NCBI RefSeq assembly: GCF_037055355.1
Contig: NZ_CP146350.1
Span: 2,689,001 to 2,753,000 of the forward strand
From: Streptomyces sp. DG1A-41
Lineage (GTDB): Bacteria > Actinomycetota > Actinomycetes > Streptomycetales > Streptomycetaceae
Direction: 5' to 3'
DNA: 64,000 bases
The notes under the pieces were generated by a model. It did not search any database and was not told where the DNA came from. It saw nothing but the letters and a program-made list of their open reading frames with translations. The translations under genes and the position numbers were made by a program. Of the stretch, positions 5,703-23,900 are shown piece by piece (within the stretch, counting starts at the first letter, position 1; each line of letters begins with the position of its first letter).

Positions 5703-5709
5703 GACGCCC

Positions 5710-5715: not shown

Positions 5716-5862
5716 GAGGGCACCCCGGACGGACACGCGGGCCCCCGCCAGACGTGCGGCCATCCGTACCCCGATCGAGTGAACCAGTTCGGCCTTCTAC
5801 AACTGCACTTCACCTCCACAGGTCGTACACCCGCACGTCACGAATGATCCCGAGGGGAACCC

Positions 5863-6402: not shown

Positions 6403-6412
6403 TCCCACGCCG

Positions 6413-6446
6413 AGAGGCCTTCCGGGAAACTCCCCGGAAGGCCTCT
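6413..6446 (+). terminator. Perfect 14-bp hairpin terminator
   Basis: Arms 6413-6426 (AGAGGCCTTCCGGG) and 6433-6446 are perfect complements around a 6-nt loop, 11 bp past the stop of the 5863 gene. It also lies just 3' of the minus-strand tRNA, so it may serve both. Confidence 0.8.
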
Positions 6447-6454
6447 GAACCATG

Positions 6455-6526
<72 letters not shown>

Positions 6527-6726
6527 GGCTCCCGGGCCATGCGCCCAGAACGAGTCGACAGCCTACATTGCCCGGGGCACGGTCCCGCAAACCCGTATCC
6601 GTGGGCTGGTCCGGGGGATAACCCCACCTGTGATCCGGGAGTGGCCCGGATCCCCCGGCGGGTCCTGGATCCATACGGTCGTGGAGCGCCCGAGAGCGCT
6701 CGTCGTCCGTACAGGGGGAGATCGTC

Positions 6727-7578: not shown

Positions 7579-7652
7579 CCGGCCCGTGTGTTCGTCCTTA
7601 ACCGGTGGGAGAATGACACCGGGCAGGGTGGACAACAGCACGGGAGAGGGAT

Positions 7653-9056
7653 GTGACGGCGACTCCAGAGCAGCCGTACTCGCCGTCGGTGCCGCGCGCA
7701 CACCGTCCGCGCCGGCGCCTCCCCCGAACCCCCGGCCCGCTCCGCGACGTGCTCGCCCTGACGGGACTGGCCCTGCTGGCCGCGCTGGCGCTGCCCGCCG
7801 CCTTCGCGGGCGGGGGGACCCGGCGCTGGTTCGGCGGTCGTGCCGAGAGCCAGCGGGCCGAGGCACAGGCCGCGAAGGACGCCGCCGCGGCCGCCTTCTA
7901 CGAGCTCGACACCGCGCAGCGCGACCTGCGCATCTCGATCGAGACGATCACCGCGGTCGACGACTCCCCCGCCGCCCGGCGCGCCGTCGCCGACTTCGAC
8001 ACGCTCGGCCGGCGCATCGACGAGGCCAGCCACCAGTACATCAGCGCGGTCGACGCCCACGACCTCGACCGCGACGACCTGGAGGCCTCGGCCGCCGCCC
8101 GCGCCCGCACCGAGCTGACCGCCGCCAGAGAGGAACTCGGCCGGGTCAAGCAGGAGCTGGACCGGTTCACCGACGGCCTCGGCCCGCTGCTCGGCAAGGC
8201 CGAGACCCAGCTGGCCCGCCTCGCCCCCGCGGTGGAGCGCGCCCGCCAGGCCCTGCTCGCCGCCTCCAACGCCCTCGACTCCGTACGGGCCACAGGGCTG
8301 AAGGCGGACGACCTCGCCGCCCGTCTCGCCGCCCTGTCTCCCGAGCTCACCAAGCTGAACCAGGGCGCCGGGCAGCACGGAGTACCGCAGACCCTGGAGC
8401 GGGCCGAGCAGGTCACGCGTGAGGCCGAGGCGGTCCGCGTGGAGGCCGAGCGACTGCCGGAGCGCGCCGCCGAGATCGATCACCGGCTCGTCTCCCTGCG
8501 CACCCGCGCCCAGGCCCTCACCACCCGCTCCGAGCAGGTCGACCCGATCCTGAGCGAACTGCGCCGCCGTTTCACCGCGGCCTGCTGGCAGGACCTGCAA
8601 CGCGTCCCGGACGTCGCCGCCGAGAACGTACGCCGGGCCGAGACGAAACTGGCCGAAGCCCGCACCGCCCGCGACGAACAGCGCTGGGCCGACGCCACGG
8701 CCCTGCTGTCGACCGTACGAGCCCTGCTGAACACCACCGACGAGGCCGTCTCGGCCGCCGGCGACCGCCTGCGCCGCCTGAACGCCGTGCAGAAGGACCC
8801 CCAGCAGGAGATCGACCGCACCCGCTTCGCCATCCGCGACGCCCAGCGCCTCGCCATGGCCGGCCGCAACACCCCCGACCCGCGCCACGCCCGCCCCCTG
8901 GACGACGCGGTGTCCCGCCTGGAACGCGCCATCGCCACCCTCGACGGCCGCCACCCCGACTACTGGCACTTCCTCACGGAAACGGAAGCCGTACGCCGGG
9001 CCGTGTCCCGCGTGGTGTCCCACATCCGCGAGGAACGCGGGGCCACCGGCCAGTGA
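7653..9056 (+). CDS. Membrane-anchored coiled-coil protein
   Basis: A 467-residue protein. A Pro/Arg-rich start is followed by one transmembrane helix at residues about 32-50 (VLALTGLALLAALALPAAF), then almost uninterrupted Ala/Glu/Arg-rich heptad sequence up to about residue 440, predicted as long coiled coils. No catalytic motif is visible. GTG 7653 has GGGAGAGGG immediately upstream. Conserved proteins of this form occur widely in Streptomyces; a scaffold role at the membrane is only a guess. A very small zinc-ribbon gene follows 21 bp downstream but has its own promoter. Confidence 0.7.
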   Translation: MTATPEQPYSPSVPRAHRPRRRLPRTPGPLRDVLALTGLALLAALALPAAFAGGGTRRWFGGRAESQRAEAQAAKDAAAAAFYELDTAQRDLRISIETITAVDDSPAARRAVADFDTLGRRIDEASHQYISAVDAHDLDRDDLEASAAARARTELTAAREELGRVKQELDRFTDGLGPLLGKAETQLARLAPAVERARQALLAASNALDSVRATGLKADDLAARLAALSPELTKLNQGAGQHGVPQTLERAEQVTREAEAVRVEAERLPERAAEIDHRLVSLRTRAQALTTRSEQVDPILSELRRRFTAACWQDLQRVPDVAAENVRRAETKLAEARTARDEQRWADATALLSTVRALLNTTDEAVSAAGDRLRRLNAVQKDPQQEIDRTRFAIRDAQRLAMAGRNTPDPRHARPLDDAVSRLERAIATLDGRHPDYWHFLTETEAVRRAVSRVVSHIREERGATGQ

Positions 9057-9065
9057 CGTGCCGGT

Positions 9066-9071
9066 TAATCT
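9066..9071 (+). promoter_or_regulatory. -10 box of a probable leaderless gene
   Basis: TAATCT ends 6 nt before ATG 9078, and no ribosome-binding site is present. Confidence 0.5.
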
Positions 9072-9077
9072 GTGCGC

Positions 9078-9305
9078 ATGCCTCGCTACGAGTACCGCTG
9101 CCGGACCTGCGGCGACACCTTCGAACTCAGTCGTCCCATGGCCGAGTCCTCCGATCCCGCGGCATGCCCCTCGGGTCACGACGACACGGTGAAGCTCCTG
9201 TCCACCGTCGCGGTGGGCGGCTCCACCTCCGCCCCGGCCCCGGCACCCCGCGCGGGCGGCGGAGGCGGTGGGGGCGGCTGCTGCGGTGGCGGCTGCTGCG
9301 GCTGA
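9078..9305 (+). CDS. FmdB-type zinc ribbon protein
   Basis: A 75-residue protein beginning MPRYEYRCRTCG, the standard start of the FmdB/CxxC regulatory-protein family. The Zn ligands are Cys8, Cys11 and probably Cys30 with His34 (AACPSGH), so the second knuckle is incomplete compared with a classical CxxC pair. The C-terminus is an unusual low-complexity tail of about eight glycines followed by CCGGGCCG. ATG 9078 is preceded by TAATCT rather than a ribosome site, so the mRNA is probably leaderless. Role unknown; the family is thought to bind zinc. Confidence 0.85.
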   Translation: MPRYEYRCRTCGDTFELSRPMAESSDPAACPSGHDDTVKLLSTVAVGGSTSAPAPAPRAGGGGGGGGCCGGGCCG

Positions 9306-9349
9306 CACCGGCGCCGGTTTTCCTCAGGGAACCTTCAGCTCCCGTTTTC

Positions 9350-9355
9350 TAGCGT
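9350..9355 (+). promoter_or_regulatory. -10 box of a probable leaderless gene
   Basis: TAGCGT ends 7 nt before ATG 9363, and no ribosome-binding site is present. Confidence 0.55.
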
Positions 9356-9362
9356 TGGCGGC

Positions 9363-10184
9363 ATGACAGCCATCGCAGCGCAGACGATCACAGCTGCCGC
9401 GGACACCGGTCCGCAGTGGGTCAACGACCTCATGGACGCGCTGGGCGCGCCGGGTGCCGGTCTCGCCATCGCCCTGGAGAACCTGTTCCCGCCGCTGCCC
9501 AGCGAGGTGATCCTGCCGCTCGCCGGGTTCGCCGCGTCCAGCGGGCGGATGAGCCTGCTCGCTGTCCTGCTGTGGACGACGGCCGGCTCGGTGCTGGGCG
9601 CGCTCGCGCTGTACGGCGTCGGTGCGCTGCTCGGTCGTGACCGGACGGTGGCGATGGCCGCCCGGCTGCCGTTGGTGAAGGTCTCCGACATCGAGCGGAC
9701 GGAAGCGTGGTTCCTGCGGCACGGCACCAAGGCGGTGTTCTTCGGCCGGATGATCCCGATCTTCCGCAGCCTGATCTCCGTACCGGCGGGCGTGGAACGC
9801 ATGCGCCTGCCGGTGTTCCTGGGGCTGACCACCCTGGGCAGCGCGATCTGGAACACGGTGTTCGTACTCGCGGGCTACCTGCTGGGCGCGAACTGGCACC
9901 AGGTGACGACCGTCGTCTCGACGTACTCGAAGGTGGTCCTTGCTCTAGCCGGGCTGGCAGCGCTGGCACTCGTCGGGCTGCGGTTGCTGAGGCGCCCCGA
10001 CAGGGGGCGCGGGGCTGTGACGATGTGCGGCACCGCCGCGAGGCGCGGCCAGCCACGGCGCCGCCGCACCCGCGCGATCACCGCACCCCCAGCTCCTGGG
10101 CGAACCGGCCAAGCCCAGCGGCAGCGAGAAGCTCCCGCAGAATCCGCTCCCCCGCAAGCACGCCCCGTTCGGGAAGCGCCCTGA
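9363..10184 (+). CDS. DedA family protein with repeat-derived C-terminal tail
   Basis: A 273-residue protein. Residues 1-215 are a normal DedA membrane domain: the motif ENLFPPLPSEVILPLAGF (residues 39-56), a G-x-x-x-G helix, and FFGRMIPIFRSLISVPAGVERM near residue 125, the conserved R-x-I-P-x-x-R signature. After LRLLRRP the frame runs on into a dispersed repeat (10001-10075) and then into the convergent HAD gene, adding about 55 basic residues unrelated to the family. The stop codon therefore lies 107 bp inside the 3' end of the neighbouring gene. It is probably leaderless from TAGCGT. The first 215 residues are likely to carry the membrane function. Confidence 0.8.
   Translation: MTAIAAQTITAAADTGPQWVNDLMDALGAPGAGLAIALENLFPPLPSEVILPLAGFAASSGRMSLLAVLLWTTAGSVLGALALYGVGALLGRDRTVAMAARLPLVKVSDIERTEAWFLRHGTKAVFFGRMIPIFRSLISVPAGVERMRLPVFLGLTTLGSAIWNTVFVLAGYLLGANWHQVTTVVSTYSKVVLALAGLAALALVGLRLLRRPDRGRGAVTMCGTAARRGQPRRRRTRAITAPPAPGRTGQAQRQREAPAESAPPQARPVREAP
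10001..10075 (-). repeat. Dispersed repeat family A, copy 1
   Basis: Read on the minus strand this matches the copies at 30061-30134 and 61934-62006: a GGGTGCGG start, then GTGGC, CGCGCC, CGGCGG, GCCGCACATCG and a terminal CAGCCCCGCGCCCCCTG. It is translated on the plus strand as the tail of the DedA protein. Confidence 0.7.
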
Positions 10185-10914
10185 TCGCGGGGGCCGTCCA
10201 GTCGGTGTCGGCCAGTTCCCCGTGGCCGGGGCGCCAGCCCTGGTCGGCCGCGAGGAGCAGGTCGGCGTCGAGCAGGGAGTCCCCGGCGGCGAGGGTGAGG
10301 TCGGCGCCGGTCCGGCGGGCGATTTCGCGCATCGCCGCGCTCTTGGTCAGCGGCTTGGGCACGGCGTAGATCTTGCGGCCCTGGAGGGACACGGTCCAGC
10401 CGCGGTTCTCCGCCCAGACCGCGAGTTCCTTCACCCAGTCCTCGTTGAGCAGTTCACGCTCGACGACGAGGTAGGCGAAGAGGTCGTCGGCAACGCGGTG
10501 CTTGCGCACCCAGACCGGGTCGGCGGACCTCAGCAGGTGTTCCTGCACCTCGGCCAGGGGCGCGCACTGGTCGGCCAGCCGCGCAGTCACCTGTGCGTGC
10601 CAGTCGGGGTCGGACACGCCGTCCACCAGGATGTGGCCGCCGTTCGCGCAGATCGCGTAGGTGGGCGCGGGGCCCGGCAGGTTGATGCGCAGGTACTGCT
10701 TGCGCGTACGGGTCGTCGTCGGCACGAACACGGCGGCGTCGCCGAGGTCGGTCAGGAGCTGGGCCGCGGTCTCCGTCATGTACGACAGCGGCTTGCTCTC
10801 GTGCACCTCCACACACAGCAGCCGGGGCGCCCGTGCGTCCGGCATGGTCAGCGCCAGAGCCGCGGCGGAGTAGATCAGTGTGCGATCGAGGTCGCTCGCG
10901 ACGAGGACGGGCAT
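10078..10914 (-). CDS. HAD family phosphatase of the Ter-associated operon
   Basis: A 278-residue Cof-like HAD hydrolase. Motif I is SDLDRTLIY with nucleophile Asp8 and Asp10; the motif II Thr lies in PTTTRT (66-71), the motif III Lys in LTKSAA (Lys191), and motif IV is GDSLLDADLL (211-220). ATG 10914 overlaps the stop of the upstream 902-aa gene as TGATG, so translation is coupled. HAD enzymes of this type occur with PRTase, TRSP and CitE-like genes in tellurium-resistance (Ter) neighbourhoods, where a nucleoside-like metabolite pathway has been proposed; the substrate is unknown. Its 3' end overlaps the DedA gene by 107 bp. Confidence 0.85.
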   Translation of the reverse strand: MPVLVASDLDRTLIYSAAALALTMPDARAPRLLCVEVHESKPLSYMTETAAQLLTDLGDAAVFVPTTTRTRKQYLRINLPGPAPTYAICANGGHILVDGVSDPDWHAQVTARLADQCAPLAEVQEHLLRSADPVWVRKHRVADDLFAYLVVERELLNEDWVKELAVWAENRGWTVSLQGRKIYAVPKPLTKSAAMREIARRTGADLTLAAGDSLLDADLLLAADQGWRPGHGELADTDWTAPAIRALPERGVLAGERILRELLAAAGLGRFAQELGVR

Positions 10915-13622
10915 CAGACCGTCACCGCCTTGCCGTCGGCGCCGGTCGCGCCCCGGGTGTACTTGGGATGGATCAGGCCGACGCAGGTGTAGGGCAGTTC
11001 GGCCACCTCCTCCACGGGGACGCCGCGATGCCCGGCCAGCAGGCGTACGTGGTCGAGGTCGCTGCCCGCCCCGGCGCGTGCCAGGACCTTCCAGGGCACG
11101 CGGCGCAGCATCACCCGGGTGGTCTCGCCGACGCCGGGCTTGACGAGGTTCACGTCGTGGATGCCGTACTCCTCGCTGATGCGCTCGACGGCGGCCCAGC
11201 CCTCCCAGGTGGGCGAGCGGTCGGCGGCGAGCAGTTCCTTGGCCTGGGCGCAGGCCGCGTCCGCGACCTCGGGGAAGCGGGCGGACACGGCGTCCAGGAA
11301 GGTCACCGAGACGTCGGTGCCGGCGAGTTCGCGGTAGAACTTGGCGCCGTGGAAGTCGTGCGGTCCGACCAGGTCCGCCCGCAGGACGGTCCGCGAGATC
11401 AGGCCGGACACGGTCGAGTTGAGGCAGGCGGAGGGAATGAGGAAGTCCTCGCGGGTGCCGTAGGTCCGTACGCAGGAGCCCGGGTCGGCCAGGACCGCGA
11501 TCTCGGGGCTGAAGCCGGTGATGCCGTCGGACTTCTCGAAGTCCTCCAGGGCCTGGGCGAGTTCGCGGGTGATGGCGCCCTTGCCGGTCCAGCCGTCGAT
11601 GAAGACGACGTCCCGGGGGTCGTGGTGCCCGGCGAGCCAGCGAAGGGCGTTGGCGTCGATGCCGCGGCCGCGGACGATCGACACGGCGTAGTGCGGCAGG
11701 TCGAGGCCGTGCCGGTGCTGGGCCCAGCGGCGCATCAGGATGCCGACGGGTGTCCCCGCGCGGGCGAGGGAGACCAGGACGGGGCGCGGGGACCGCTCCG
11801 CGAGGACCGTCTCGGTGACGACGCCGACGGCCTTGGCGATGCGGGACGCCGAGGTCTCCAGCGCGGCGTGGAACAGCTCCTGGTACTGCTCGCTCGGCTG
11901 GTACTCCACGGGCAGCGACTCGGCGTAGTGCGCGCCGCCGCTCTGGATCGCCTCCTCGCGCTCCTCGGTCGGCGCCTCCAGCGTCACGTCCGAGAGGTCC
12001 TGGAGCAGCCAGCCGACCTCCTCGGGCGCGTACGAGGAGAAGGCGGGGCCGCGGAGGGGCTCGGGCAGCATGGAGGGCCTTTCGGGGGCGTGCGGGGACT
12101 CGGGGGCGTACGACGGCACAACGGCGAGGAGGACCTGCGGCGTGTGCGCGGCGAGCTGGGCCAGCAGGCCGTCGGGAGCGTGCAGCACGGGCGTGTCCGC
12201 GGCCGAGTCGACGACGGCGATCACCGCGTCGAAGCCGGCGCCCGCCACGTTGTAGGCGTACCGCTCGCCCGGGCCGTCGGCGGGGTCGTCGTGGGCGGGG
12301 AAGACCAGGCGGGTGCGTATCGCGTAGCCGGGGTCGTCGACGGCGAGGACGGGTGAGCGGGTGGTGGTGGAGTAGCGCACTTCGGCGCGGACGGTCCCCT
12401 CCAGCTCGCGGGCGAGCCTGAGCGGGGCGTACATCAGCTCCTCGAAGCCGAGGACGAGCACGCGGCGGGCGTCGGCAGGCAGCGCCTCGGCGATCCGGGC
12501 CGTCATGGCGGGCAGGGCCGTCTCCAGGCGCTCCCGGTGCGCGGGGGTGAACCCGTGCCGGCCGCCGTCGGGCAGGCCCTCGGACCAGCGCAGGTCTATG
12601 CGGCTGATGTGGGGACGGGTGCGGTTGTCCTCCGGGTGCGGGCCGGTGGGGGTTGGCCGCGCAGTTCCCCGCGCCCCTGCAGTTCCCCGCGCCCCCAGGG
12701 GGGTGGCCCGACCGTCGCTTTCAAGGCCCGCGGCGCCTGTTTCGCCCTCGAGGGGCGCGGGACCGTGTCGATGTGCGGCTCCGCCGCGGAGCGCGACCGG
12801 CCCAGACGATGCCGCAGACGACGAACCACCCTCCGCGGCACTCTCGGCCTCGTACCGCGCCACCAACTCCCGCCCCTTCTCCAGCACCCCCTCGGGCAGC
12901 CGCACGGTCCCCGAAGCCGCTGCCACGAGATCCACCCGCGCGCCGATCTCGCGGGCGAACTCCTCCAGCCGGCCGGCGTCGGCAACCGACCGCATGTCCA
13001 CCAGCGCCACCACGACATACCGCCGCCGCGGATACCGCTCATGCAGATCCCGGACGGTGTTCAGCACCGTGTTCCCCGTGGAGAACTCGTCGTCGACCAG
13101 GACCAGCGGCCCGTCCCCGCTGAGCAGCGCGGGGTCCTCCGGCAGCAGCAGGTGCGAGGTCGCGTGCGAGTGGGACTCCTCGAAGCCGCCGGCCGGGGCG
13201 AGACCGGCGACGGGGCGGCGCGTGGAGTGCAGGTAGGGGGCGAGGCCCAGGCCGTCGGCGACACAGTGGCCGAGGCCGGTCGCGGTCTCCGCGTAGCCGA
13301 GGACGACCGCGCGGCGCGCCTCGTCGGCGCCCAGCAGTTCACGCACGCGGCGGCCCAGCTCGAAGCCGTGGCCGTAGACCACGGACGGGGACTGCGGGAC
13401 GTGCTTGCCGAGCACGTTCGACACCAGCAGGTGGGCCCGCTTGGGGTTGCGGCGCAGGGCCAGCCCGAGCAGGTCCGTCAGCCGGTCGTCGCCGACGAGC
13501 TCGACGCCGAGCCGCTCGGCGACCCAGCTGCCCGACCATATGCCGTCGGCACCGCCGGCCGCCCCGGCCGGCACCCCGTCGCGCACCTGGTGGTGCGCCC
13601 CCTCGTTCACTGCCTTCTCCAT
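10914..13622 (-). CDS. PRTase-TRSP-StiP-PELOTA fusion protein (Ter-associated)
   Basis: A 902-residue multidomain protein in one continuous frame. Residues 30-250 form a phosphoribosyltransferase domain with the PRPP loop VLVDDEFSTGNT (174-185). Residues about 270-325 are an Arg/Gly/Pro linker encoded by dispersed repeat DNA. Residues about 336-505 match the TRSP domain. Residues about 528-800 match the StiP family: EEREEAIQSGGAHYAESLPVEY is split around 553-574, then VSLARAGTPVGI, IVRGRGID, IDGWTGKGAI (675-684) and FLIPSACLNSTVSG with Cys733. Residues about 812-892 resemble a PELOTA RNA-binding domain. It lies 63 bp after the CitE-like gene and overlaps the HAD gene. Some species encode these parts as separate genes. 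A metabolite-making role is inferred. Confidence 0.8.
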   Translation of the reverse strand: MEKAVNEGAHHQVRDGVPAGAAGGADGIWSGSWVAERLGVELVGDDRLTDLLGLALRRNPKRAHLLVSNVLGKHVPQSPSVVYGHGFELGRRVRELLGADEARRAVVLGYAETATGLGHCVADGLGLAPYLHSTRRPVAGLAPAGGFEESHSHATSHLLLPEDPALLSGDGPLVLVDDEFSTGNTVLNTVRDLHERYPRRRYVVVALVDMRSVADAGRLEEFAREIGARVDLVAAASGTVRLPEGVLEKGRELVARYEAESAAEGGSSSAASSGPVALRGGAAHRHGPAPLEGETGAAGLESDGRATPLGARGTAGARGTARPTPTGPHPEDNRTRPHISRIDLRWSEGLPDGGRHGFTPAHRERLETALPAMTARIAEALPADARRVLVLGFEELMYAPLRLARELEGTVRAEVRYSTTTRSPVLAVDDPGYAIRTRLVFPAHDDPADGPGERYAYNVAGAGFDAVIAVVDSAADTPVLHAPDGLLAQLAAHTPQVLLAVVPSYAPESPHAPERPSMLPEPLRGPAFSSYAPEEVGWLLQDLSDVTLEAPTEEREEAIQSGGAHYAESLPVEYQPSEQYQELFHAALETSASRIAKAVGVVTETVLAERSPRPVLVSLARAGTPVGILMRRWAQHRHGLDLPHYAVSIVRGRGIDANALRWLAGHHDPRDVVFIDGWTGKGAITRELAQALEDFEKSDGITGFSPEIAVLADPGSCVRTYGTREDFLIPSACLNSTVSGLISRTVLRADLVGPHDFHGAKFYRELAGTDVSVTFLDAVSARFPEVADAACAQAKELLAADRSPTWEGWAAVERISEEYGIHDVNLVKPGVGETTRVMLRRVPWKVLARAGAGSDLDHVRLLAGHRGVPVEEVAELPYTCVGLIHPKYTRGATGADGKAVTV
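12633..12698 (+). repeat. Dispersed repeat family A, variant inside a coding region
   Basis: GGGTGCGGGCCGGTGGGGG, TTGGCCGCGCAG and two copies of TTCCCCGCGCCCC, the common Streptomyces variant of family A. Here it is read on the minus strand as part of the linker of the 902-aa protein. Confidence 0.65.
12748..12800 (-). repeat. Dispersed repeat family A, second half-copy, inverted to 12633-12698
   Basis: On the minus strand: GGTCGCGCTCCGCGGCGG, AGCCGCACATCGACACGG, TCCCGCGCCCCTCGAG, closely matching 30080-30131. It lies head-to-head with the preceding copy, 49 bp apart, within the PRTase-TRSP linker. Confidence 0.7.
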
Positions 13623-13685
13623 GTATTCCCTGCGTCGATGTCGCCGGTCTCCCCGACGAGAATGCGTTCCTCGGATACCGTGCGG

Positions 13686-14852
13686 TCAGTCGCCCAGGCC
13701 GGCCGCGAGCAGCTCCACGAAGCCGATGTCCTCGTTCGCCACGCCGAAAACCTCGGCACGCAGCAGCGTCCGCTCGGCCCAGGCCCGATGCGGCTTCACC
13801 TCGTTCATCTTGTTCGTGTACGCCGACCTCAGCACGCCCCCGCCGCCGCGCTCGGGGCGCAGGATGTCCTGGGCGTCCGAGAACTCCTCGTGGCTGACGA
13901 CCGACAGGGCGTGCACGGGCAGCACGTGCGAGGGGTGGATGCAGGTCTTGCCCAGCAGTCCGTTGGCCTGGTCCAGGGAGATCTCCCTGAGCAGGCCGTC
14001 CATGGCGTGCTCAATCAGCTTCTCGCGCAGCTCCGCGGCCTGCACCTCCAGGAAGGGGCTCTGCCGCAGCAACGGCTTGAACATGCGCTCCTGGACCCGG
14101 AAGTACTCCCACACCGGCCCGGTCACGGTGAAGCCGGTGCCGTCGGCGCGGCCCAGCATGTTCACCACGTCGGCGATCACGGAGGCGACGACCTGCACGT
14201 CGTAGGCCGTCATGTCGGGGCCTCTGCGCAGCCCGTACGAGGAACAGAAGTCCGTCACGCCGAGGCGCAGGGCGAGCACCCGGTCGCGGTACTTGCCGAC
14301 CGCCCGGGAGATGCCCTCCAGGGTCGCCACGCGCGACTCGCGGTAGAGCAGCTCCGGCGACTCCAGCACCGGCATGGCGAACAGGCGACGGCCGCCTTCG
14401 GCCTCGGCGGTCGCCAGCGCCTCGAGGAAGGGGATGCCGCGTTCCTCGGTGAACTTCGGCAGTACGAATCCGGACAGCAGCCGGGCGGCGGGCCCGAGGC
14501 GTCGTACCAGGTCGGGGATCTGCTCGGGGACGCGCACCCGGATGAAGAGCAGCGGCAGGTCCGCGCCCGGGAGGCCGGCGAGGGCCGTGAGCTGGCGGAC
14601 GAGGTTCTCCTCGCCCGGGCCGACGTCCGCGTCGTCGATCGAGTCCTCCAGGCACAGGACCATGGAGACCACGCCGCGACCGGTCTGCTTGAGGATGTCG
14701 TCGGCCAGGCGTTCCCGGGTGGCCGGGCTGTAGAGGGTGGCGCCCAGGGCGGCCGAGAGCAGCCGGGCCGGCGAATCCGCGGTGAACGTGCACGGCTCGC
14801 GGTAGAAGAGACGCTTCCGCACCTCAGGGGCGATGTGCCCGAAATGACGCAT
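13686..14852 (-). CDS. HpcH/HpaI aldolase / citrate lyase beta-like protein (Ter-associated)
   Basis: A 388-residue CitE-like TIM-barrel protein. It shows LYSPATRERLADDI (residues 40-53), then VVSMVLCLEDSIDD with the Glu-Asp pair used for metal binding, LLFIRVRVPEQ with the substrate-binding Arg, and GFVLPKF. Length is larger than classical CitE (about 290), as in Ter-operon members. It is the first gene of the minus-strand operon CitE-like, PRTase fusion, HAD. The 230 bp upstream separate it from the divergent TerD gene at 15083 and must hold both promoters. In Ter neighbourhoods this enzyme is proposed to act on a small acyl or keto-acid intermediate; the reaction is not established. Confidence 0.85.
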   Translation of the reverse strand: MRHFGHIAPEVRKRLFYREPCTFTADSPARLLSAALGATLYSPATRERLADDILKQTGRGVVSMVLCLEDSIDDADVGPGEENLVRQLTALAGLPGADLPLLFIRVRVPEQIPDLVRRLGPAARLLSGFVLPKFTEERGIPFLEALATAEAEGGRRLFAMPVLESPELLYRESRVATLEGISRAVGKYRDRVLALRLGVTDFCSSYGLRRGPDMTAYDVQVVASVIADVVNMLGRADGTGFTVTGPVWEYFRVQERMFKPLLRQSPFLEVQAAELREKLIEHAMDGLLREISLDQANGLLGKTCIHPSHVLPVHALSVVSHEEFSDAQDILRPERGGGGVLRSAYTNKMNEVKPHRAWAERTLLRAEVFGVANEDIGFVELLAAGLGD

Positions 14853-15082
14853 GGAACTCCCCCGTGGTGGTGGTGCGACCTGCGAATCGTCGAAAGGTGG
14901 CCGGTAATAGTACGTAGAAGTGCATGGCAGAGGTTCCCGTCAGGCATGAATTTCAGGTAACGCGGGCAAGCACAGCCGGGCCCGGTGAGGACGACGGTAG
15001 TCCGCGAGGGCCGCCGGCGCCGCTCGTGACACCGCGGGCCCCCGCGTTGTCGTGAGCAGGACCGAGAAGGCAGGATGACCGC

Positions 15083-16075
15083 ATGACGCACGCGATGCTG
15101 AAGGGGTCGAACGTCCCGCTGGAAGCCACCACGGTGCGCGCCGTGCTGCGCTGGACACCCGGGCAGGGGGTTCCGGACGTCGACGCCTCCGCGCTGCTCC
15201 TCGGCCCCGACGGTCGTGTGCGCTCCGACGAGGACTTCGTCTTCTACAACCAGCCCCGGCACCCTTCCGGGAAGGTGTGGCGGCTCGGCAAGAAGCGGGT
15301 CGCCGAGGGCCTGACCGACACGATCCAGACAGATCTCGCCGGTGTCGAGTCGGGAGTCAGCCGGATTCTGCTGGTCGCTTCGGCGGACGGCGTCACGTTC
15401 GACCGCGTACGGGCCCTGCGCATTTTGCTGTACGACGCGGCGGGCACCGGCGCGGAGCCTCTGGCGTACTTCGACGTCAAGCCGGAGACGGGCGAGGAGA
15501 CCGCGCTGATCTGCGGCGAGCTGTACCGGCGCGGGGAGGGCTGGAAGTTCCGGGCGCTGGGCGAGGGTTATTCGAACGGGCTTCAGGGGCTCGCGACCGA
15601 GTACGGCATCTCGGTGGACGAGTCGGAGGCGATCGAGGAGCCGGCCGGACAACCGACCACGGTCGGCGCGGCCAAGCCCACCACGTCCGGCCCGGCCCAG
15701 CCCACGACCTCCGGCCCCGCACAGCCGCCTGCTGCTGACCCGGCTCAGCCCACGACCTCCGCCCCCACCCAGCAGCCCCCGGCCCCAACCCCGCCCTCCC
15801 CCGAGGTGTCCCGGCCGCTGCCGCCGGAGCAGCCGACCGCGGTGCCCGCGCAGCCCGCGTACGGGTATCCGCCGCAGCAGCCCCCGGCGACCCAGCCGGC
15901 GTACGGCTACCCGCATCCCACCAGCCAGCCCGCCTACGGCTACCCCCAGGCGCCGGCGACGGCGGGCGTCACGGGGGCGCAGTCCGGCTACGGCTACCCG
16001 CAGCCGGTCGCCGCCGCGTCCCCCGACCCGGACTTCCGCCTGCCCCCGCAGGGCCCTCAGTTCATCGGGCGCTAG
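15083..16075 (+). CDS. TerD family protein with YGYP-repeat tail
   Basis: A 330-residue protein. Residues 1-185 form a TerD domain: [20 protein letters not shown] carries the Asp-x-Asp calcium-binding motif, then [34 protein letters not shown] and [15 protein letters not shown]. The rest is a low-complexity tail, first [12 protein letters not shown] repeats and then four YGYP units (residues about 264-315). ATG 15083 has AGGCAGG about 9 nt upstream. TerD proteins bind calcium and act in stress responses on the inner face of the membrane; the Pro/Tyr tail may mediate clustering or membrane contacts (inference). It is divergent from the CitE-PRTase-HAD operon. Confidence 0.85.
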
Positions 16076-16096
16076 TGCCCCGACAGGCAGGACCAG

Positions 16097-16123
16097 GGGC
16101 CGGCCCCCGCAAGGGCCCGGCCC
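16097..16123 (+). terminator. GC-rich hairpin between convergent genes
   Basis: GGGCCGGCCC pairs with GGGCCCGGCCC, one bulged base, 6-nt spacer, 21 bp after the TerD stop and before the end of the TerA-like gene. Confidence 0.5.
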
Positions 16124-16135
16124 GCAGCCCGGCCC

Positions 16136-16873
16136 TCAGCGCTCGACCTTCGTCTTGTAGCCCCGGCCCCACTGGAGCCCCCAGCCGTACAACCGGTCCA
16201 GCTCGGCCTGGAACCCGTAGACGAACTTCGCCTCGCGGCGCACGATGATCTCGTCCTTGACCTTCTCGATCATGACGATGGCGCAGGAGCGGGCCTGCGG
16301 CTGGCGTTCGTCGAGGTGGATCTCGATGCGGGGGCCGTTGCTCGGGTAGAGGGTGACGATGGCGTGGGCCCGGTCGAAGGCGGGTGTCGCGTCGTAGATG
16401 TAGACGAAGACCAGGAGCCGCTTGATGCTGTCGCGGTGGTCGAGGTTGATGTACATCGTCTCGCCGCTCGCGGAGCCGAAGCGGTCGTCGCCGCTGAGTT
16501 TGACGTACGGCGGGGCGTTGACGTCGCCGAAGTAGCCGCCGAGGGGCTGGACGACGCCCTTGCTTCCGTCCTGGAGTTCGTACAGACAGCCCAGGTCGAG
16601 GTCGACGTTGACCACGCTCTGGCTGTGGCCGATGACCTCCGGCGGTTTGAGGGCCCTGAAGGGGTGCCGCAGCAGGCTCTCGCGCTGCGGGCCGCCGATG
16701 TCGGAGGTGCGCATCCGCCAGCTCAGGTTGACCCGGAGATGGCCGGTGGCCGCGCCCTGTTTGGTGAGTGATATCTGCGCGTGCCGCTTGGTCAGTTCGA
16801 TCGCGTTGGTTGCCGCGTGACCCGAGTCGAACTGCACATCGCGCCCACGCCGGAGTCCGTCGAACAGGCCCAT
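16136..16873 (-). CDS. TerA-like TerD-superfamily protein
   Basis: A 245-residue protein whose order of motifs follows TerA: NLSWRMRT, VNVDLDLGCLYELQDGSKGV with Asp-x-Asp-x-Gly, QPLGGYFGDVNAPPYVKLSGDDRFG, GETMYINLDHRDSIKRLLVFVYIYD, and a C-terminal GFQAELDRLYGWGLQW. ATG 16873 (MGLFDGLRRGRDVQFDSG) is chosen over the in-frame start at 16978 because that extension is low complexity and overlaps a terminator, and a GGGGGCGG run precedes this ATG. It probably works with the TerD paralogues and the DUF475 protein nearby in a calcium-linked stress complex, by analogy with Ter systems. Confidence 0.8.
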   Translation of the reverse strand: MGLFDGLRRGRDVQFDSGHAATNAIELTKRHAQISLTKQGAATGHLRVNLSWRMRTSDIGGPQRESLLRHPFRALKPPEVIGHSQSVVNVDLDLGCLYELQDGSKGVVQPLGGYFGDVNAPPYVKLSGDDRFGSASGETMYINLDHRDSIKRLLVFVYIYDATPAFDRAHAIVTLYPSNGPRIEIHLDERQPQARSCAIVMIEKVKDEIIVRREAKFVYGFQAELDRLYGWGLQWGRGYKTKVER

Positions 16874-16937
16874 TCCGCCCCCACGTTCACTTGGTGACCG
16901 CGGGTCCTCGCCGTACCCGCGGCCCTTGACGACCGAC

Positions 16938-16974
16938 GGGGCGGCCGCCGAGGAGTTGCCTCGGTGGCCGCCCC
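16938..16974 (-). terminator. 16-bp hairpin after the DUF475 gene
   Basis: GGGGCGGCCGCCGAGG (16938-16953) pairs with 16959-16974 (one G-T pair) around a 5-nt loop, 30 bp downstream of the minus-strand stop at 17004. Confidence 0.75.
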
Positions 16975-17003
16975 GCACAGAGCGTTCCTCACCCGAAGGG
17001 GCG

Positions 17004-18152
17004 TCACACCCCGGACGAGACCTCAGTCTTGTCGTCCGAGCCCGAGGCTTTTCCCTCGGCCGCCGCCAGCGCGCGGTTGCGGCGGACGGAGGACCAGAAG
17101 GACCAGGCGATCAGGATGACGCCGACGGAGCCGGTGATGAACTCGTTGATCTCGTACCGGATGGTGACGAGCAGGATCGCGGCGAGCGCGCCGATCGCGT
17201 AGTGCGCGCCGTGCTCCAGGTAGACGTATTCGTCGAGGGTGCCCTGGCGGACCAGGTAGACCGTGAGCGACCGGACGTACATGGCGCCGATGCCGAGGCC
17301 GAGGGCCATCAGGACGATGTCGTTGGTGATGGCGAAGGCGCCGATCACGCCGTCGAAGGAGAAGGACGCGTCCAGGACCTCAAGGTAGAGGAACATGAAG
17401 AACGCGGCCTTGCCGGCCACGACGACCGCGGAGCGCGGCTTGCCGGCCCGGACGGCCTCTTCCTCCTGCTCGTGTTCGCGTTCCTCCTCCTCTTCGAGCT
17501 TGTCCTCGAAGTAGCCGGAGAGACCGCCCACGATCATGTACGTGATCAGGCCCCCGATACCGGCGAGAAGGACCGTCTCCGCCTTGTCGACGTGCGTGCC
17601 GCCGTGCTGGTGGGCGTGGGTCGCGAAGGTCATCGCGGAGATCAGCAGGACGATCAGCGCGATGCAGACCGACAGCATGTCGACCTTGCCGAGCTTGGCC
17701 AGGGGCCGCTCCAGCCAGCCCAGCCACTTGATGTCCCGGTCCTCGAAGATGAAGTCCAGGAAAATCATCAGCAGGAACATGCCACCGAACGCGGCGATCG
17801 ACGGGTGGGCGTCGGTGACGAGCTCCTGGTAACGCTCCTTGTCGGTGAGCGCGAGGTCGACGGCCTCGATCGGCCCGAGTTGGGCGCTGAGGGCGACGAT
17901 CACGACGGGGAAGACCAGCCGCATACCGAAAACGGCGATCAGAATGCCGATCGTGAGGAAGATCTTCTGCCAGAAGGCACTCATCTTCTTCAGGATTCCG
18001 GCGTTGACCACCGCGTTGTCGAAGGACAGCGAGATCTCGAGGACGGACAGGATCGCTACGAGCCCGAAAGCGGCCCACCCTCCGTAGAAGACCGCTGCGA
18101 CCAGGCCGAGCGCGGTGACCGCGAACGACCACCCGAAGGTTTTCAGAACCAC
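17004..18152 (-). CDS. DUF475 TerC-like integral membrane protein
   Basis: A 382-residue membrane protein with about nine hydrophobic segments. Signature stretches are LEISLSFDNAVVNAGIL (residues 40-56) and LEVLDASFSFDGVIGAFAIT, two related SFDN/SFDG motifs that mark the TerC/DUF475 superfamily and whose acidic residues are thought to bind metal ions. A Glu-rich cytosolic loop (EDKLEEEEEREHEQEEE) separates the halves. The start is GTG 18152 with GGGTAG upstream. TerC-like proteins are proposed to export metals such as manganese and to contact TerD proteins; the three TerD-type genes around it support that link (inference). Confidence 0.85.
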   Translation of the reverse strand: MVLKTFGWSFAVTALGLVAAVFYGGWAAFGLVAILSVLEISLSFDNAVVNAGILKKMSAFWQKIFLTIGILIAVFGMRLVFPVVIVALSAQLGPIEAVDLALTDKERYQELVTDAHPSIAAFGGMFLLMIFLDFIFEDRDIKWLGWLERPLAKLGKVDMLSVCIALIVLLISAMTFATHAHQHGGTHVDKAETVLLAGIGGLITYMIVGGLSGYFEDKLEEEEEREHEQEEEAVRAGKPRSAVVVAGKAAFFMFLYLEVLDASFSFDGVIGAFAITNDIVLMALGLGIGAMYVRSLTVYLVRQGTLDEYVYLEHGAHYAIGALAAILLVTIRYEINEFITGSVGVILIAWSFWSSVRRNRALAAAEGKASGSDDKTEVSSGV

Positions 18153-18280
18153 TGGCTACCCAATCGTGTGTGTACGGGTCTCTCCCGCGTCGCCGTACCC
18201 GGCTTTACGAACTTTTGAAGCCGAAGTCTAGTCGGCCCCCCTTCGCACCCCACGGGGCCCCGACTTTTGCTCATATCGCG

Positions 18281-18856
18281 TTACGAGACGTTGACTCCGA
18301 AGTCCAGAGCAATGCCCCGCAGCCCCGACGCGTACCCCTGCCCGACGGCCCTGAACTTCCACTCGCTCTGGTAGCGATAGACCTCGCCGAAGATCATCGC
18401 GGTCTCCGTGGAGGCGTCCTCGCTGAGGTCGTAGCGGGCGAGTTCCTGGCCGTCCGCCTGGTTCACCACACGGATGAAGGCATTGCTGACCTGGCCGAAG
18501 GTCTGGCCGCGTTCGTCGGCCATGTGGATGGAGACGGGAAAGACGATCTTGTCGCACTGGGCCGGCACCTTGGAGAGGTCGATCAGGAGCGACTCGTCGT
18601 CGCCGTCGCCCTCGCCGGTGAGGTTGTCACCGGTGTGCTCCACGGAACCGTCCGGACTCTTGAGCTGGTTGTAGAAGACGAACCACTCGTCCCCGAGCAC
18701 GCGCCCGCCGCTGCACATCAGCGCGCTGGCGTCGAGGTCGAAGGGGGCTCCGGTGGTCGAGCGTGCGTCCCAGCCGAGCCCGATCATCACCTGAGTGAGG
18801 TTCGGTGCGGCCTTGGACAGGGAGACGTTGCCTCCCTTGGCGAGCGTGACGCCCAT
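18281..18856 (-). CDS. TerD family protein
   Basis: A 191-residue, standard-length TerD. It begins [15 protein letters not shown] and carries [17 protein letters not shown] (calcium Asp-x-Asp), [34 protein letters not shown] and [16 protein letters not shown]. Its sequence is very close to the downstream-numbered paralogue at 18952-19527, so the pair arose by duplication. A 15-bp terminator (18898-18932) between them shows they are separate transcription units, leaving only a short promoter region for this gene. TerD binds calcium and supports stress tolerance and differentiation in actinobacteria. Confidence 0.95.
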
Positions 18857-18897
18857 GATTCCCTCCCCGGGTGGTGTTTCTCAGGTGGGTCCTGCAC

Positions 18898-18932
18898 GTC
18901 CGGCGCCGCACGTAAACCGTGCGGCGCCGGAC
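18898..18932 (-). terminator. Perfect 15-bp hairpin between the terD paralogues
   Basis: GTCCGGCGCCGCACG (18898-18912) pairs perfectly with 18918-18932 around loop TAAAC, 20 bp past the stop of the 19527 terD gene. Confidence 0.8.
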
Positions 18933-18951
18933 GGAGGGACCTTTGAGTGGG

Positions 18952-19527
18952 TCAGACGTTCACGCCGAAGTCCTGCGCGATGCCGCGCAGGCCCGAGGCG
19001 TAGCCCTGGCCGATGGCGCGGAACTTCCACTCCGCGCCGTGCCGGTAGAGCTCACCGAAGACCATGGCGGTCTCGGTGGAGGCGTCCTCGCTCAGGTCGT
19101 AGCGGGCGATCTCCGCGCCGCCGGCCTGGTTCACGACGCGGATGAACGCGTTGCGCACCTGGCCGAAGGACTGCTGGCGGGTCTCGGCGTCGTAGATCGA
19201 GACCGGGAAGACGATCTTCTCCACGTCGGCCGGGACGCCCGCGAGGTTGACCTTGATCTGCTCGTCGTCGCCCTCGCCCTCACCGGTGAGGTTGTCGCCG
19301 GTGTGCTCGACGGAGCCGTCCGGGCTCTTGAGGTTGTTGAAGAAGATGAAGTGCTGGTCGTTGGCGACCTTGCCGGAGCTGTTCAGCAGCAGCGCGCTGG
19401 CGTCCAGGTCGAAGTCGGTGCCGGTCGTGGTGCGGACGTCCCACCCCAGACCGACGATGACCGCGGTCAGGCCCGGCGCCTCCTTGGTCAGCGATACGTT
19501 GCCGCCCTTGCTGAGGCTGACTCCCAC
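18952..19527 (-). CDS. TerD family protein
   Basis: A 191-residue TerD, the closest relative in the window of the 18281 gene. Motifs: [67 protein letters not shown] and [16 protein letters not shown]. The acidic GEGDD loop and Asp-x-Asp sites match those that bind calcium in studied TerD proteins. It has its own 147-bp upstream region and terminator, so it is monocistronic. Having two near-identical TerDs plus the tailed TerD and a TerA-like protein suggests the parts of a hetero-oligomeric stress complex. Confidence 0.95.
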
Positions 19528-19674
19528 GAGTCCTCCATTGGTGTCCAGGGGCGGGATGCCCCGTTGTGCTCGGATGTCGGATCAACGAATCGATCCTAGT
19601 GACGGGTTCCCGCCCCTCGCAGGCCCTGGAGCCGACAAATCAGCGGGTGTCGAACGCAGGACGCCCGGCCGGCG

Positions 19675-20133
19675 TCACAGGGTGTCGAGCGCCTTCACGT
19701 AGTCGTTCAGGTCGCGCGCGTCCGGCAGGCCGTTGACGACCGTCCAGCGCACGACGCCCTCCTTGTCGATGACGAAGGTGCCGCGCACGGCGCAGCCCTT
19801 GTCCTCGTCGAAGACGCCGTAGGCGCGCGAGACGTTGCCGTGCGGCCAGAAGTCCGACAGCAGCGGGTACTCCAGGCCCTCCTGCTCGGCGAAGACGCGC
19901 AGCGTGTGGATGGAGTCGTTGGAGACGGCGAGCAGCTGGGTGTCACGGTCGGAGAACTGCGGCAGGTTGTCCCGCAGCTCGCACAGCTCGCCCGTGCACA
20001 CGCCGGTGAAGGCGAAGGGGTAGAAGAGCAGCACCACGTTCTTCCGACCGCGGAAGTCGGACAGCTTCACGCTCGCGCCGTGGTTGTCCTTGAGCTCGAA
20101 GTCGGGGGCCTTCTCGCCGACCTGGATCGCCAT
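19675..20133 (-). CDS. AhpE-type peroxiredoxin
   Basis: A 152-residue thioredoxin-fold peroxidase. The peroxidatic Cys is Cys46 in [12 protein letters not shown]; a further Cys at 51 (ELCELRDN) is close by, and Arg in the [11 protein letters not shown] strand completes the active site. Length and the short C-terminus fit the one-Cys AhpE class of actinobacteria. It reduces peroxides in the cytosol, with electrons from mycothiol-linked or thioredoxin-like partners (family knowledge). It sits between the Ter genes and DUF3052 and has its own 135-bp upstream region. Confidence 0.9.
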
Positions 20134-20206
20134 CGTTGTGGGTGTCCCTTCGTGGGGCTTGAACGAACGGGACCCCCACCCTACGCAGGGACCGGCGCAG
20201 ACCGGT

Positions 20207-20233
20207 GGGCGGGCCGACGATGCCGGCCCGCCC
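20207..20233 (-). terminator. 10-bp hairpin after DUF3052
   Basis: GGGCGGGCCG (20207-20216) pairs perfectly with 20224-20233, 7-nt loop, 36 bp past the DUF3052 stop and upstream of the peroxiredoxin gene. Confidence 0.6.
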
Positions 20234-20268
20234 CTTCCGTACCACCGACGCCTGGACGCGCCGTACGG

Positions 20269-20706
20269 CTAACGCTTGGACTTGGCGGCTTTGGGCGTCG
20301 CCAGCCGGCTGCCGCTCCAGTCCTTGCCGACGCTGACGCTCTTCGACGCCGTCAGGCCCGCCGTCGTGGCGGCCTCCGAGATGTCGCTCGGCTCCACATA
20401 GCCCGAACGGCCCGTCTTCGGCGTGAGGAGCAGGATCGCGCCGCCCTCTTCGATGTACGTGGTGGCATCGACCAGCGCATCCGTCAGGTCGCCGTCGTCG
20501 TCACGGAACCACAGCACAACGGCGTCGGCCACGTCGTCGTAGTCCTCGTCCACCAGGTCGCCCTCGACGATGCCCTCGATGGCCTCGCGGAGTTCCTGGT
20601 CCACGTCGTCGTCGTAGCCGATCTCCTGGACCACCTGCCCGGGCTGGAACCCCAGCCTGGCGGCAGGGTTCGTCCGCTCCTCCGCGTGGTCCGCGGTCGC
20701 GCTCAC
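20269..20706 (-). CDS. DUF3052 family protein
   Basis: A 145-residue acidic protein. GTG 20706 (MSATADHAEERTNPAARLGF) is preceded by AGGAGG, so the longer in-frame start at 20811 is rejected. The conserved core is LGFQPGQVVQEIGYDDDVD, then an Asp/Glu-rich region and ILLLTPKTGRSGYVEPSDI. DUF3052 genes are almost always divergent from or next to aceE in Streptomyces and relatives, as here; the function is unknown. No membrane segment is present. Confidence 0.9.
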   Translation of the reverse strand: MSATADHAEERTNPAARLGFQPGQVVQEIGYDDDVDQELREAIEGIVEGDLVDEDYDDVADAVVLWFRDDDGDLTDALVDATTYIEEGGAILLLTPKTGRSGYVEPSDISEAATTAGLTASKSVSVGKDWSGSRLATPKAAKSKR

Positions 20707-21152
20707 GGGGTGCCTCCTGATCATGTCTTGGGATGGGGGTGCCCCCTGCTCCTCTGAGCTTGGGGAATATTCAGCCACGCGCGTGCGCGAAGCATTGGCC
20801 GTAGTCCACACGGGCGGGGCGGATCGCGCAAGTACCCGGCCGTTCAGACCGCCGAAACGGTGACGATCCTGGCGGTGTCACCGCAACACCAGGCACACCG
20901 TCATGATTCAAGGTGACGTACACCACACCTTTCTGCCCTGTTTGGGCGTTTGGAAATCGTCTGTAGGTACGAGACTCGAAGGTATTCACCCCATACGTCA
21001 CGGAGCCGGTCCACCGCCCGGGTTACCGCTGGGTAGAGATGACGTTTACGGCCCCGAGGTGGACCATGGGGAGCGGCGCGGCCAAAGCGACACGCCCAGC
21101 GACCCCAGCGAAACAGCGGCCCTCGCAGGCCCTCTGACAGGTAAGGAACAGC
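20707..21152 (+). other. 446-bp divergent intergenic region between DUF3052 and aceE
   Basis: No gene is seen. The region must hold both promoters. A 13-bp palindrome GCGGTGTCACCGC lies at 20872-20884 and a TAGAGA hexamer at about 21035-21040. Its AT content is higher than its surroundings around 20925-21000. No conserved riboswitch fold is recognised. Confidence 0.5.
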
Positions 21153-23900
21153 GTGGCTTCCGCATCCGATCGCAACCCGATCATCATTGGCGGCCTTCCG
21201 AGTCAGGTTCCTGACTTCGATCCCGAAGAGACGCAGGAGTGGCTCGACTCCCTCGACGCCGCCGTCGACGAGCGCGGCCGCGAGCGCGCCCGCTACCTGA
21301 TGCTGCGGCTGATCGAGCGGGCCCGCGAGAAGCGCGTGGCCGTGCCGGAGATGCGCAGCACGGACTACGTCAACACCATCCCCACCAAGAGCGAGCCGTT
21401 CTTCCCGGGCAACGAGGAGATCGAGCGCAAGATCCTCAACGCGACCCGCTGGAACGCGGCCGTGATGGTCTCGCGCGCCCAGCGGCCCGGTATCGGCGTC
21501 GGCGGCCACATCGCCACGTTCGCGTCCTCCGCCTCGCTCTACGACGTCGGCTTCAACCACTTCTTCCGCGGCAAGGACGAGGGCGACGGCGGCGACCAGG
21601 TCTTCTTCCAGGGGCACGCCTCGCCGGGCATCTACGCCCGCGCCTTCCTGCTGGACCGGCTCAGCGAGCAGCACCTGGACGGCTTCCGCCAGGAGAAGTC
21701 GAAGGCGCCGTACGGCCTGTCGTCGTACCCGCACCCGCGCCTGATGCCGGACTTCTGGGAGTTCCCGACGGTGTCGATGGGCCTCGGCCCGATCGGCGCC
21801 ATCTACCAGGCGCGGATGAACCGCTACATGCACGCGCGCGGGATCGCGGACACGTCCAAGTCGCACGTGTGGGCGTTCCTCGGCGACGGCGAGATGGACG
21901 AGCCGGAGTCGCTGGGCCAGCTGTCCATCGCCGCCCGCGAGGGCCTGGACAACCTCACGTTCGTGGTCAACTGCAACCTCCAGCGCCTCGACGGGCCGGT
22001 ACGCGGCAACGGCAAGATCATCCAGGAGCTGGAGTCGATCTTCCGCGGTGCCGGCTGGAACGTGATCAAGCTGGTCTGGGACCGCACCTGGGACCCGCTG
22101 CTCGCCCAGGACCGCGACGGCGTGCTGGTCAACAAGATGAACACCACGCCGGACGGGCAGTTCCAGACGTACGCCACGGAGACCGGCGCGTACATCCGCG
22201 ACCACTTCTTCGGTGACGACCACCGCCTGCGCGCGATGGTCGAGAACATGACCGACGACCAGATCCTGCACCTGGGCCGCGGCGGTCACGACCACCGGAA
22301 GATCTTCGCGGCGTACAAGGCGGCCGTGGAGCACAAGGGCCAGCCGACGGTGATCCTCGCCAAGACGATCAAGGGCTGGACGCTGGGCCCGAACTTCGAG
22401 GGCCGCAACGCCACGCACCAGATGAAGAAGCTGACGGTCGACGACCTCAAGCGCTTCCGCGACCGCCTGCACCTGCCGATCTCCGACAAGGAGCTGGAGT
22501 CCGGCGCCCCGCCGTACTACCACCCGGGCCGGGAGTCGGAGGAGATCCAGTACATGCACGACCGCCGCAAGGGGCTCGGCGGTTACGTCCCCACGCGTGT
22601 CGTACGGTCCGAGCCGCTGCCGCTGCCCGAGGACAAGACGTACGCGACCGTGAAGAAGGGCTCGGGCCAGCAGTCCATCGCGACGACGATGGCGTTCGTC
22701 CGTCTCCTGAAGGACCTCATGCGGGACAAGGAGATCGGCAAGCGGTTCGTGCTGATCGCGCCGGACGAGTACCGCACGTTCGGCATGGACTCGTTCTTCC
22801 CGAGCGCGAAGATCTACAACCCGCTCGGCCAGCAGTACGAGTCGGTCGACCGTGACCTGCTGCTCGCCTACAAGGAGTCGCCGAACGGCCAGATGCTGCA
22901 CGACGGCATCTCGGAGGCCGGCTGCACGGCCTCCCTGATCGCCGCCGGCTCGGCCTACGCGACCCACGGCGAGCCGCTGATCCCGGTCTACGTCTTCTAC
23001 TCGATGTTCGGTTTCCAGCGCACCGGCGACCAGTTCTGGCAGATGGCCGACCAGCTGGCCCGCGGCTTCGTCCTGGGCGCGACCGCCGGCCGTACCACCC
23101 TGACCGGTGAGGGCCTCCAGCACGCCGACGGGCACTCGCAGCTGCTGGCCTCCACGAACCCCGGCTGCGTGGCGTACGACCCGGCGTTCGGCTTCGAGAT
23201 CGCGCACATCGTGAAGGACGGCCTGCGCCGGATGTACGGCGGCTCCGAGGAGCACCCGCACGGCGAGGACGTCTTCTACTACCTGACCGTCTACAACGAG
23301 CCGATCCAGCACCCGGCCGAGCCCGAGAACGTGGACGTCGAGGGCATCCTCAAGGGCGTCTACCGCTTCAGCGAGGGCACGGGCGGCTCGATCCCGGCGC
23401 AGATCATGGCGTCGGGTGTCGCGGTGCCGTGGGCGGTCGAGGCGCAGAAGATCCTCGCGGAGGAGTGGAACGTCAAGGCCGACGTCTGGTCGGCGACCTC
23501 CTGGAACGAGCTGCGGCGCGAGGCCGTGGCCTGCGAGGAGCACAACCTGCTGCACCCCGAGGAGGAGCAGCGGGTGCCGTACGTGACGCGGAAGCTGGCC
23601 GACGCGCAGGGTCCGGTCGTGGCCGTGTCCGACTGGATGCGGTCGGTTCCGGACCAGATCGCGCGCTGGGTGCCGCAGACGTACCAGTCGCTCGGCGCGG
23701 ACGGCTTCGGCTTCGCCGACACGCGGGGTGCGGCCCGCCGCTTCTTCCACATCGACGCGCAGTCGATCGTGGTGGGGGTGCTGACCGAGCTGGCCCGCGA
23801 GGGCAAGGTCGACCGGTCGGTGCTCAAGCAGGCCATCGACCGGTACCAGCTGCTGGACGTGTCGGCAGCCGACCCGGGGGTCGCGGGCGGCGACGCATAA
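21153..23900 (+). CDS. aceE: Pyruvate dehydrogenase E1 component (homodimeric type)
   Basis: A 915-residue protein of AceE length. It decarboxylates pyruvate with thiamine diphosphate and passes the acetyl group to the lipoyl E2 of the PDH complex. The TPP/Mg site [10 protein letters not shown] is at residues 244-253 and NCNLQ near 273; the active-site stretch [21 protein letters not shown] is split near residues 108-128 and carries the conserved His. [16 protein letters not shown] lies in the transketolase-like middle domain. GTG 21153 has AAGGA 7-11 nt upstream. No E2 or E3 gene is nearby, so the complex is assembled from distant loci. A 446-bp upstream region suggests regulated expression. 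A hairpin follows at 23915-23962. Confidence 0.96.

Follow-up and report, generated by a model that had tools for sequence, protein, structure and literature searches.

The window analysed here, 64,000 nucleotides from the single 8.99-Mb contig of the Streptomyces sp. DG1A-41 genome, carries a Ter stress locus that we found to be a variant of the known Ter system belonging to the core of the genus. At its centre a CitE-like lyase, a PRTase_2-TRSP-StiP-PELOTA fusion and a HAD phosphatase make up a single operon, with a TerD gene divergent from it, as an earlier sequence-only reading had described, with the genes placed as in Table 1. That reading had also called the locus an island, which does not hold. 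We compared the best 80 of 568 related loci, of which all but one carry the title Streptomyces and the remaining one Kitasatospora. Over the extent of each locus, all 80 keep a contiguous part of the order AceE, DUF3052, AhpE, TerD, TerD, DUF475, TerA, TerD, lyase, PRT (the phosphoribosyltransferase fusion gene), HAD, and 64 of them have all eleven genes. In only 45 of the 80 is HAD followed by a VTT gene, which was therefore left outside the conserved block. Of 150 genomes of the genus, 148 gave a lyase match, and in 146 the match had E below 1e-115. Three of the other four have just a partial PRT gene; since the frames are fragmentary (386-544 aa) and the assemblies consist of 780 to 1770 contigs, we read these as assembly gaps. 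The fourth genome (G135) lacks both the lyase and the PRT gene. A horizontally acquired island was rejected because the GC content of the locus matches that of the window and its order is conserved in all 80 loci.

The enzymes also occur together across the class. In a class-level survey of 394 genomes (StiP at E up to 1e-20, lyase at E up to 1e-30) we found StiP in 92 and the lyase in 91; both were present in 90, StiP alone in 2 and the lyase alone in 1. The co-conservation on which the sequence-only reading had staked its proposal was thus observed, at the level of both co-occurrence and gene order. In a phylum sample the lyase was matched in 10 of 246 genomes.

The gene identities and the Ter context are supported by Pfam, by alignments and by the neighbouring Ter genes. 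The window contains PRTase_2-TRSP, StiP and PELOTA_1 (fused to the PRTase), C-C_Bond_Lyase and a Ter-type HAD, adjoined by TerD-domain genes (Pfam E-values of the three TerD genes 3.5e-44, 1.4e-82 and 3.2e-89) and by a TerC-type membrane protein, the DUF475 protein, which also matches PF03741 TerC at 5.7e-21. The TerA-like protein scores 17.2 bits against Pfam TerD, under the cut-off of 25.3, and its label comes instead from an alignment of 217 columns with E. coli plasmid TerA, at 35% identity. The stop of the fusion gene and the start of the HAD gene overlap by one base, at 10914, and 230 bp separate the lyase operon from the plus-strand TerD gene. The earlier layout was right about this divergent gene and needs correcting for the TerA, DUF475, TerD, TerD group, which shares its strand with the lyase operon.

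Table 1. Features of the Ter locus (window positions; res, residues of the fusion protein; ORF, open reading frame; PRPP, phosphoribosyl pyrophosphate; ECF, extracytoplasmic function).
Feature	Position	Strand	Basis or remark
HAD-superfamily phosphatase, 278 aa, last gene of metabolite operon	10078..10914	-	motifs, solved relatives
PRTase_2-TRSP-StiP-PELOTA_1 fusion, 902 aa	10914..13622	-	Pfam
PELOTA_1, putative RNA-binding domain, res 806-885	10968..11207	-	Pfam E 7e-34; low model confidence
StiP domain, res 529-779	11286..12038	-	Pfam E 1e-106; PRTase-like fold in model
TRSP domain, res 352-488	12159..12569	-	Pfam E 3e-40
PRTase_2 domain, res 51-238	12909..13472	-	Pfam E 5e-67; PRPP-loop-like VLVDDEFSTGNT
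CitE-like C-C bond lyase, 388 aa, first gene of metabolite operon	13686..14852	-	Pfam C-C_Bond_Lyase E 4e-120
Predicted ECF-like promoter of lyase operon, GGGAAC-N18-CGT	14912..14938	-	conservation
Divergent TerD gene, Pro/Gln-rich tail, 330 aa	15083..16075	+	Pfam
TerA-like gene, 245 aa from internal ATG	16136..16873	-	ORF 16136-16978, opening at 16978
DUF475 (TerC-like) membrane protein	17004..18152	-	Pfam E 1e-139
TerD gene 2, 191 aa	18281..18856	-	Pfam
TerD gene 1, 191 aa	18952..19527	-	Pfam; solved close relative 3IBZ
Predicted ECF-like promoter of TerD gene 1, GGGAAC-N18-CGT	19585..19611	-	conservation

The pattern GGGAAC-N18-CGT faces the operon both in the intergenic stretch of 230 bp and ahead of TerD gene 1, in each case amid conserved blocks. 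It was matched in 75 of 80 lyase upstream regions (and in 2 more with a spacer of 17) and in 70 of 72 upstream regions of TerD gene 1, compared with 0 to 2 matches at spacer 18 upstream of the other genes tested, and its CGT lies mostly 57 to 61 bp 5' of the start. Within the window the pattern occurs twice where 0.97 occurrences are expected, a count that is not unusual (reached by 24 of 100 shuffles), and a version with a spacer of 16 also occurs twice. The pattern was chosen after inspecting the sequences; the case for a promoter rests on conservation and placement. The pattern resembles the ECF promoters listed for sigma-E in the published table available to us, with a CGTCTT-like -10 element, and we predict that the two operons have a common ECF-like promoter pattern. 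More conserved blocks, GGCaTGAA..GGTAAC on the plus strand, are found at 14940-14960, upstream of the lyase promoter.

The expected ortholog in S. coelicolor is the region SCO2361-SCO2368, the numbering being deduced from gene order. In the excerpts of the literature available to us, sco2368 stands in a sigma-E target table, where a different site is given, and its protein rises with vancomycin. An S. viridochromogenes protein 92% identical to SCO2368 is reported as up under oxidative stress (1.99-fold, p 0.15 as tabulated) and down in an acnA mutant. Sven_2176/SCO2362, by gene order the PRT gene, is induced >5-fold in nitrogen starvation and is unresponsive in a glnR mutant. Direct control by GlnR was considered and set aside, no box being seen by eye with the consensus from the literature.

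Our joint reading, to which we would give slightly less than an even chance, is that of a core chromosomal Ter locus of Streptomyces under an ECF-type sigma factor, coupled to a small PRTase/HAD/lyase pathway. It builds on the genes, their order and co-occurrence, the common promoter pattern and the conserved motifs, all of which are observed; the substrates, the product, the order of reactions and the sigma factor itself are inferred. The sigma factor would switch the locus on, and the TerD proteins, the TerC-like membrane protein and the TerA-like protein would form the sensing or metal side. The PRTase_2 and StiP domains, two PRTase-fold units in one chain, would have PRPP or a ribonucleotide as substrate or ligand, the HAD enzyme would take off a phosphate, and the CitE-like lyase would make or break a C-C bond in an acyl part. 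RNA may be a ligand of the PELOTA domain, the ATP-grasp step known from plasmid Ter modules would be absent or optional, and the product might feed TerD. The operon is predicted to make a molecule that probably contains ribose. The comparative-genomics proposal on Ter systems to which the sequence-only reading appealed does exist in print, as confirmed by its title in reference lists and by short summaries in citing papers, and as a proposal its idea of a nucleoside-like product is a fair fit.

The PRTase part of this reading draws on structural models. The PRTase_2 domain combines a PRTase fold in its model with the PRPP-loop-like motif VLVDDEFSTGNT, both expected of a type I phosphoribosyltransferase such as APRT, OPRT or PyrR. 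The model of the StiP domain also resembles phosphoribosyltransferases, with weaker support than for PRTase_2. The classical PRPP loop has two acidic residues; at their position StiP carries DG, within a DGWTGKG loop that is invariant in the sequences aligned. The models thus suggest that the fusion is probably a double PRTase. Sequence comparisons of the domains were not significant: hhalign gave E 0.15 for StiP against PRTase_2 (further controls 0.23 and 0.85), and a search of solved-structure sequences returned no relative of StiP-PELOTA at E up to 1 and one irrelevant chain for PRTase_2-TRSP (E 0.079). For the lyase, the family gave matches to solved enzymes of the citrate-lyase type (best E 9e-12), and residues E69, D70, R105, R107, K133, E164, R196 and D201 are identical in all 6 sequences aligned.

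The solved relatives of the HAD enzyme sit awkwardly with a nucleoside-like product. Against Pfam it gives only a chance match (E 0.14), and D8, D10, T67, K191, G211, D212 and D216, which we take to be the HAD motif residues, are identical in all 4 sequences aligned. Judged by sequence, its closest solved relatives (6D3V, 6D3W and 6CJ0) are trehalose phosphatases by name. The operon could instead act on a phosphorylated sugar or glycoside; the HAD enzyme would then dephosphorylate a sugar phosphate, and a ribosylated intermediate would be processed by the PRTase units. The window HAD matches 6CJ0/6D3V at E 7e-11, and the four-sequence family alignment matches the solved relatives at 1e-85, a value driven by its plasmid-type members. 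The HAD of the ter operon of Pseudomonas aeruginosa plasmid pPA942-IMP45 (L202) is about 92% identical to 6D3V, with 19 differences over 251 positions by a count made by eye. An 'extrachromosomal TPP' (a trehalose phosphatase) of P. aeruginosa has been assayed, with inhibition, according to the published record available to us. If, as we infer, the two are the same protein, phosphatase activity may already have been measured for an enzyme of a Ter pathway, and the nucleoside hypothesis must account for it. However, the window HAD shares only 26% identity with the ter HADs of E. coli and of an IMG/VR contig (L172), and 44% with that of a Tsukamurella plasmid (L102); activity on trehalose-6-phosphate in vitro need not be physiological; the conserved neighbours include no trehalose synthase; and among the literature matches listed none linked a trehalose phosphatase to Ter. 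On balance, we regard a phospho-sugar pathway as unlikely, though as the best placed of the alternatives.

As the sequence-only reading had noted, there is no ATPgrasp_Ter gene beside the locus. The survey for a distant copy that it proposed did find one, a 385-aa protein encoded at 7.98 Mb, 5.3 Mb away, which could complete the pathway in trans as in the plasmid Ter modules. This protein scores 120.6 bits against PF15632 (E. coli Ter protein, 132). It shares 25% identity with that E. coli protein and 38% with the Ter-linked ATP-grasp of one other actinobacterial region (L203). In the class-level survey, at E up to 1e-20, ATPgrasp_Ter was found in 22 of 92 StiP-positive genomes against 6 of 302 StiP-negative ones. 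But 17 of those 22 belong to this genus, so that the association is largely one lineage. Within the genus, just 64 of the 150 genomes have an ATPgrasp_Ter match above 100 bits (5 more have weaker matches), and a strong one is missing from 83 of the 146 genomes with a strong lyase. The neighbours of the 7.98-Mb gene are a sulfotransferase and glycosidases, and none of the 13 TerD-domain places of the host genome, 3 of which are at this locus, lies near it. In a tree of 53 rows (4 loci were dropped for lack of a matching ORF of at least 250 aa), 42 genus rows cluster in a single clade separate from E. coli Ter, one further genus row (L190) groups with another genus, and long branches make up the rest. 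Completion in trans thus appears improbable, somewhat more so than a phospho-sugar pathway.

We rather read the ATP-grasp step, absent by sequence search from more than half of the sampled genus, as optional, and call the window locus a variant because its ATPgrasp_Ter is unlinked and present as a single copy elsewhere in the genome. Since a match at E up to 1e-20 is missing altogether from 70 of the 92 StiP-positive genomes, ATP-grasp may or may not be a defining member of the module. It lies near the PRT gene in E. coli, in the IMG/VR contig and in P. aeruginosa, and is linked in one (L203) of 8 further actinobacterial regions.

The fusion allows two further alternatives, each of which we consider very improbable. 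Since its PRTase-like units carry a putative RNA-binding PELOTA domain, the chain (PRTase_2, StiP, possibly TRSP) may act on RNA, with a ribosylated base being attached to or exchanged on RNA, and not a free metabolite made, under ECF-controlled envelope or nitrogen stress. The TRSP sequence VLGxEE...STTRSPV aligns with VLGYAE...STRRPV of PRTase_2, a common VLGxxE ... STxRxP pattern that hints at an internal duplication and is not significant by hhalign. As a profile match, homology of TRSP to PRTase_2 was rejected (E 0.055, probability 1%; the registers match), TRSP against StiP giving E 0.058 and the control of TRSP against HAD 0.087. Equally doubtful is that StiP is the cysteine protease of its Pfam and NCBI names, the operon making or processing a peptide-type signal: a trypsin-like protein is present in two plasmid-type modules, and C717 is retained by 39 of the 40 rows in alignment A3 as well as by E. 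coli and Tsukamurella, but it is Arg in the IMG/VR contig, no Cys is invariant among 8 StiP sequences (4 from Streptomycetaceae), and the model resembles PRTases. Our literature search found no paper joining StiP, cysteine protease and tellurite.

Some observations concern the surroundings of these genes. A stable hairpin (-42.8 kcal/mol, z -7.0) lies at 18890-18945 between the two TerD genes; its stem arms are largely kept among 69 loci, and it may act as an attenuator, or as a processing site, that sets TerD gene 1 apart from the remainder. No Rfam family was found within window positions 9000-21200. The genome has TerD domains at 13 places, so several systems may make use of TerD proteins.

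Among S. coelicolor genes, the TerD gene SCO2368 has, by its title in reference lists, been studied for calcium homeostasis. For the enzyme operon the literature matches, as far as available to us, included no functional study and one expression datum, in the GlnR table. SCO2366 is labelled FasR in the accessible text of PMC8981147 and PMC9739823; gene order would make it the DUF475 gene, and the label is probably a locus-tag slip. Ter enzyme genes are widespread on plasmids: of 72,556 plasmid records, 2567 match at least part of the fusion. A near-universal chromosomal version in a tractable genus, mostly without ATP-grasp, with like promoters and a solved HAD relative, makes the question of the product directly testable.

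Finally, we compared the locus with known Ter modules. Those of E. coli plasmid pRHBSTW-00177_2 (L101) and P. aeruginosa pPA942-IMP45 are, like the window, linked to TerD, TerA and TerC-type genes and contain PRTase_2-TRSP, HAD, StiP-PELOTA and the C-C lyase. They differ in that an ATP-grasp gene is linked and HAD lies between PRT and StiP, which are separate genes, whereas in the window PRT and StiP are fused, the lyase comes first, HAD comes last, and DUF475 takes the place of TerC. The IMG/VR contig, filed as viral, has a full module at 1855-13100 (ATP-grasp, trypsin-TerD, PRTase, HAD, StiP, lyase, second HAD, TerD, TerA, TerC), and may be a piece of a plasmid, since it resembles the P. aeruginosa module (TerC 87% identical). 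Tsukamurella tyrosinosolvens plasmid 14 has the order lyase, PRTase_2-TRSP, StiP-PELOTA, HAD, adjoined by TerD, TerD and DUF475. Like the Streptomyces locus it has no ATP-grasp annotated, within a 22-kb stretch; unlike it, its PRT and StiP genes are split and an extra double-TerD gene stands at the end. Pairwise comparison found no similarity between its 399-aa protein and the window TerA-like protein. What the Streptomyces locus adds to the known Ter type is a module that does without an adjacent ATP-grasp gene, a fused, probable double PRTase and a common, predicted ECF-like promoter.
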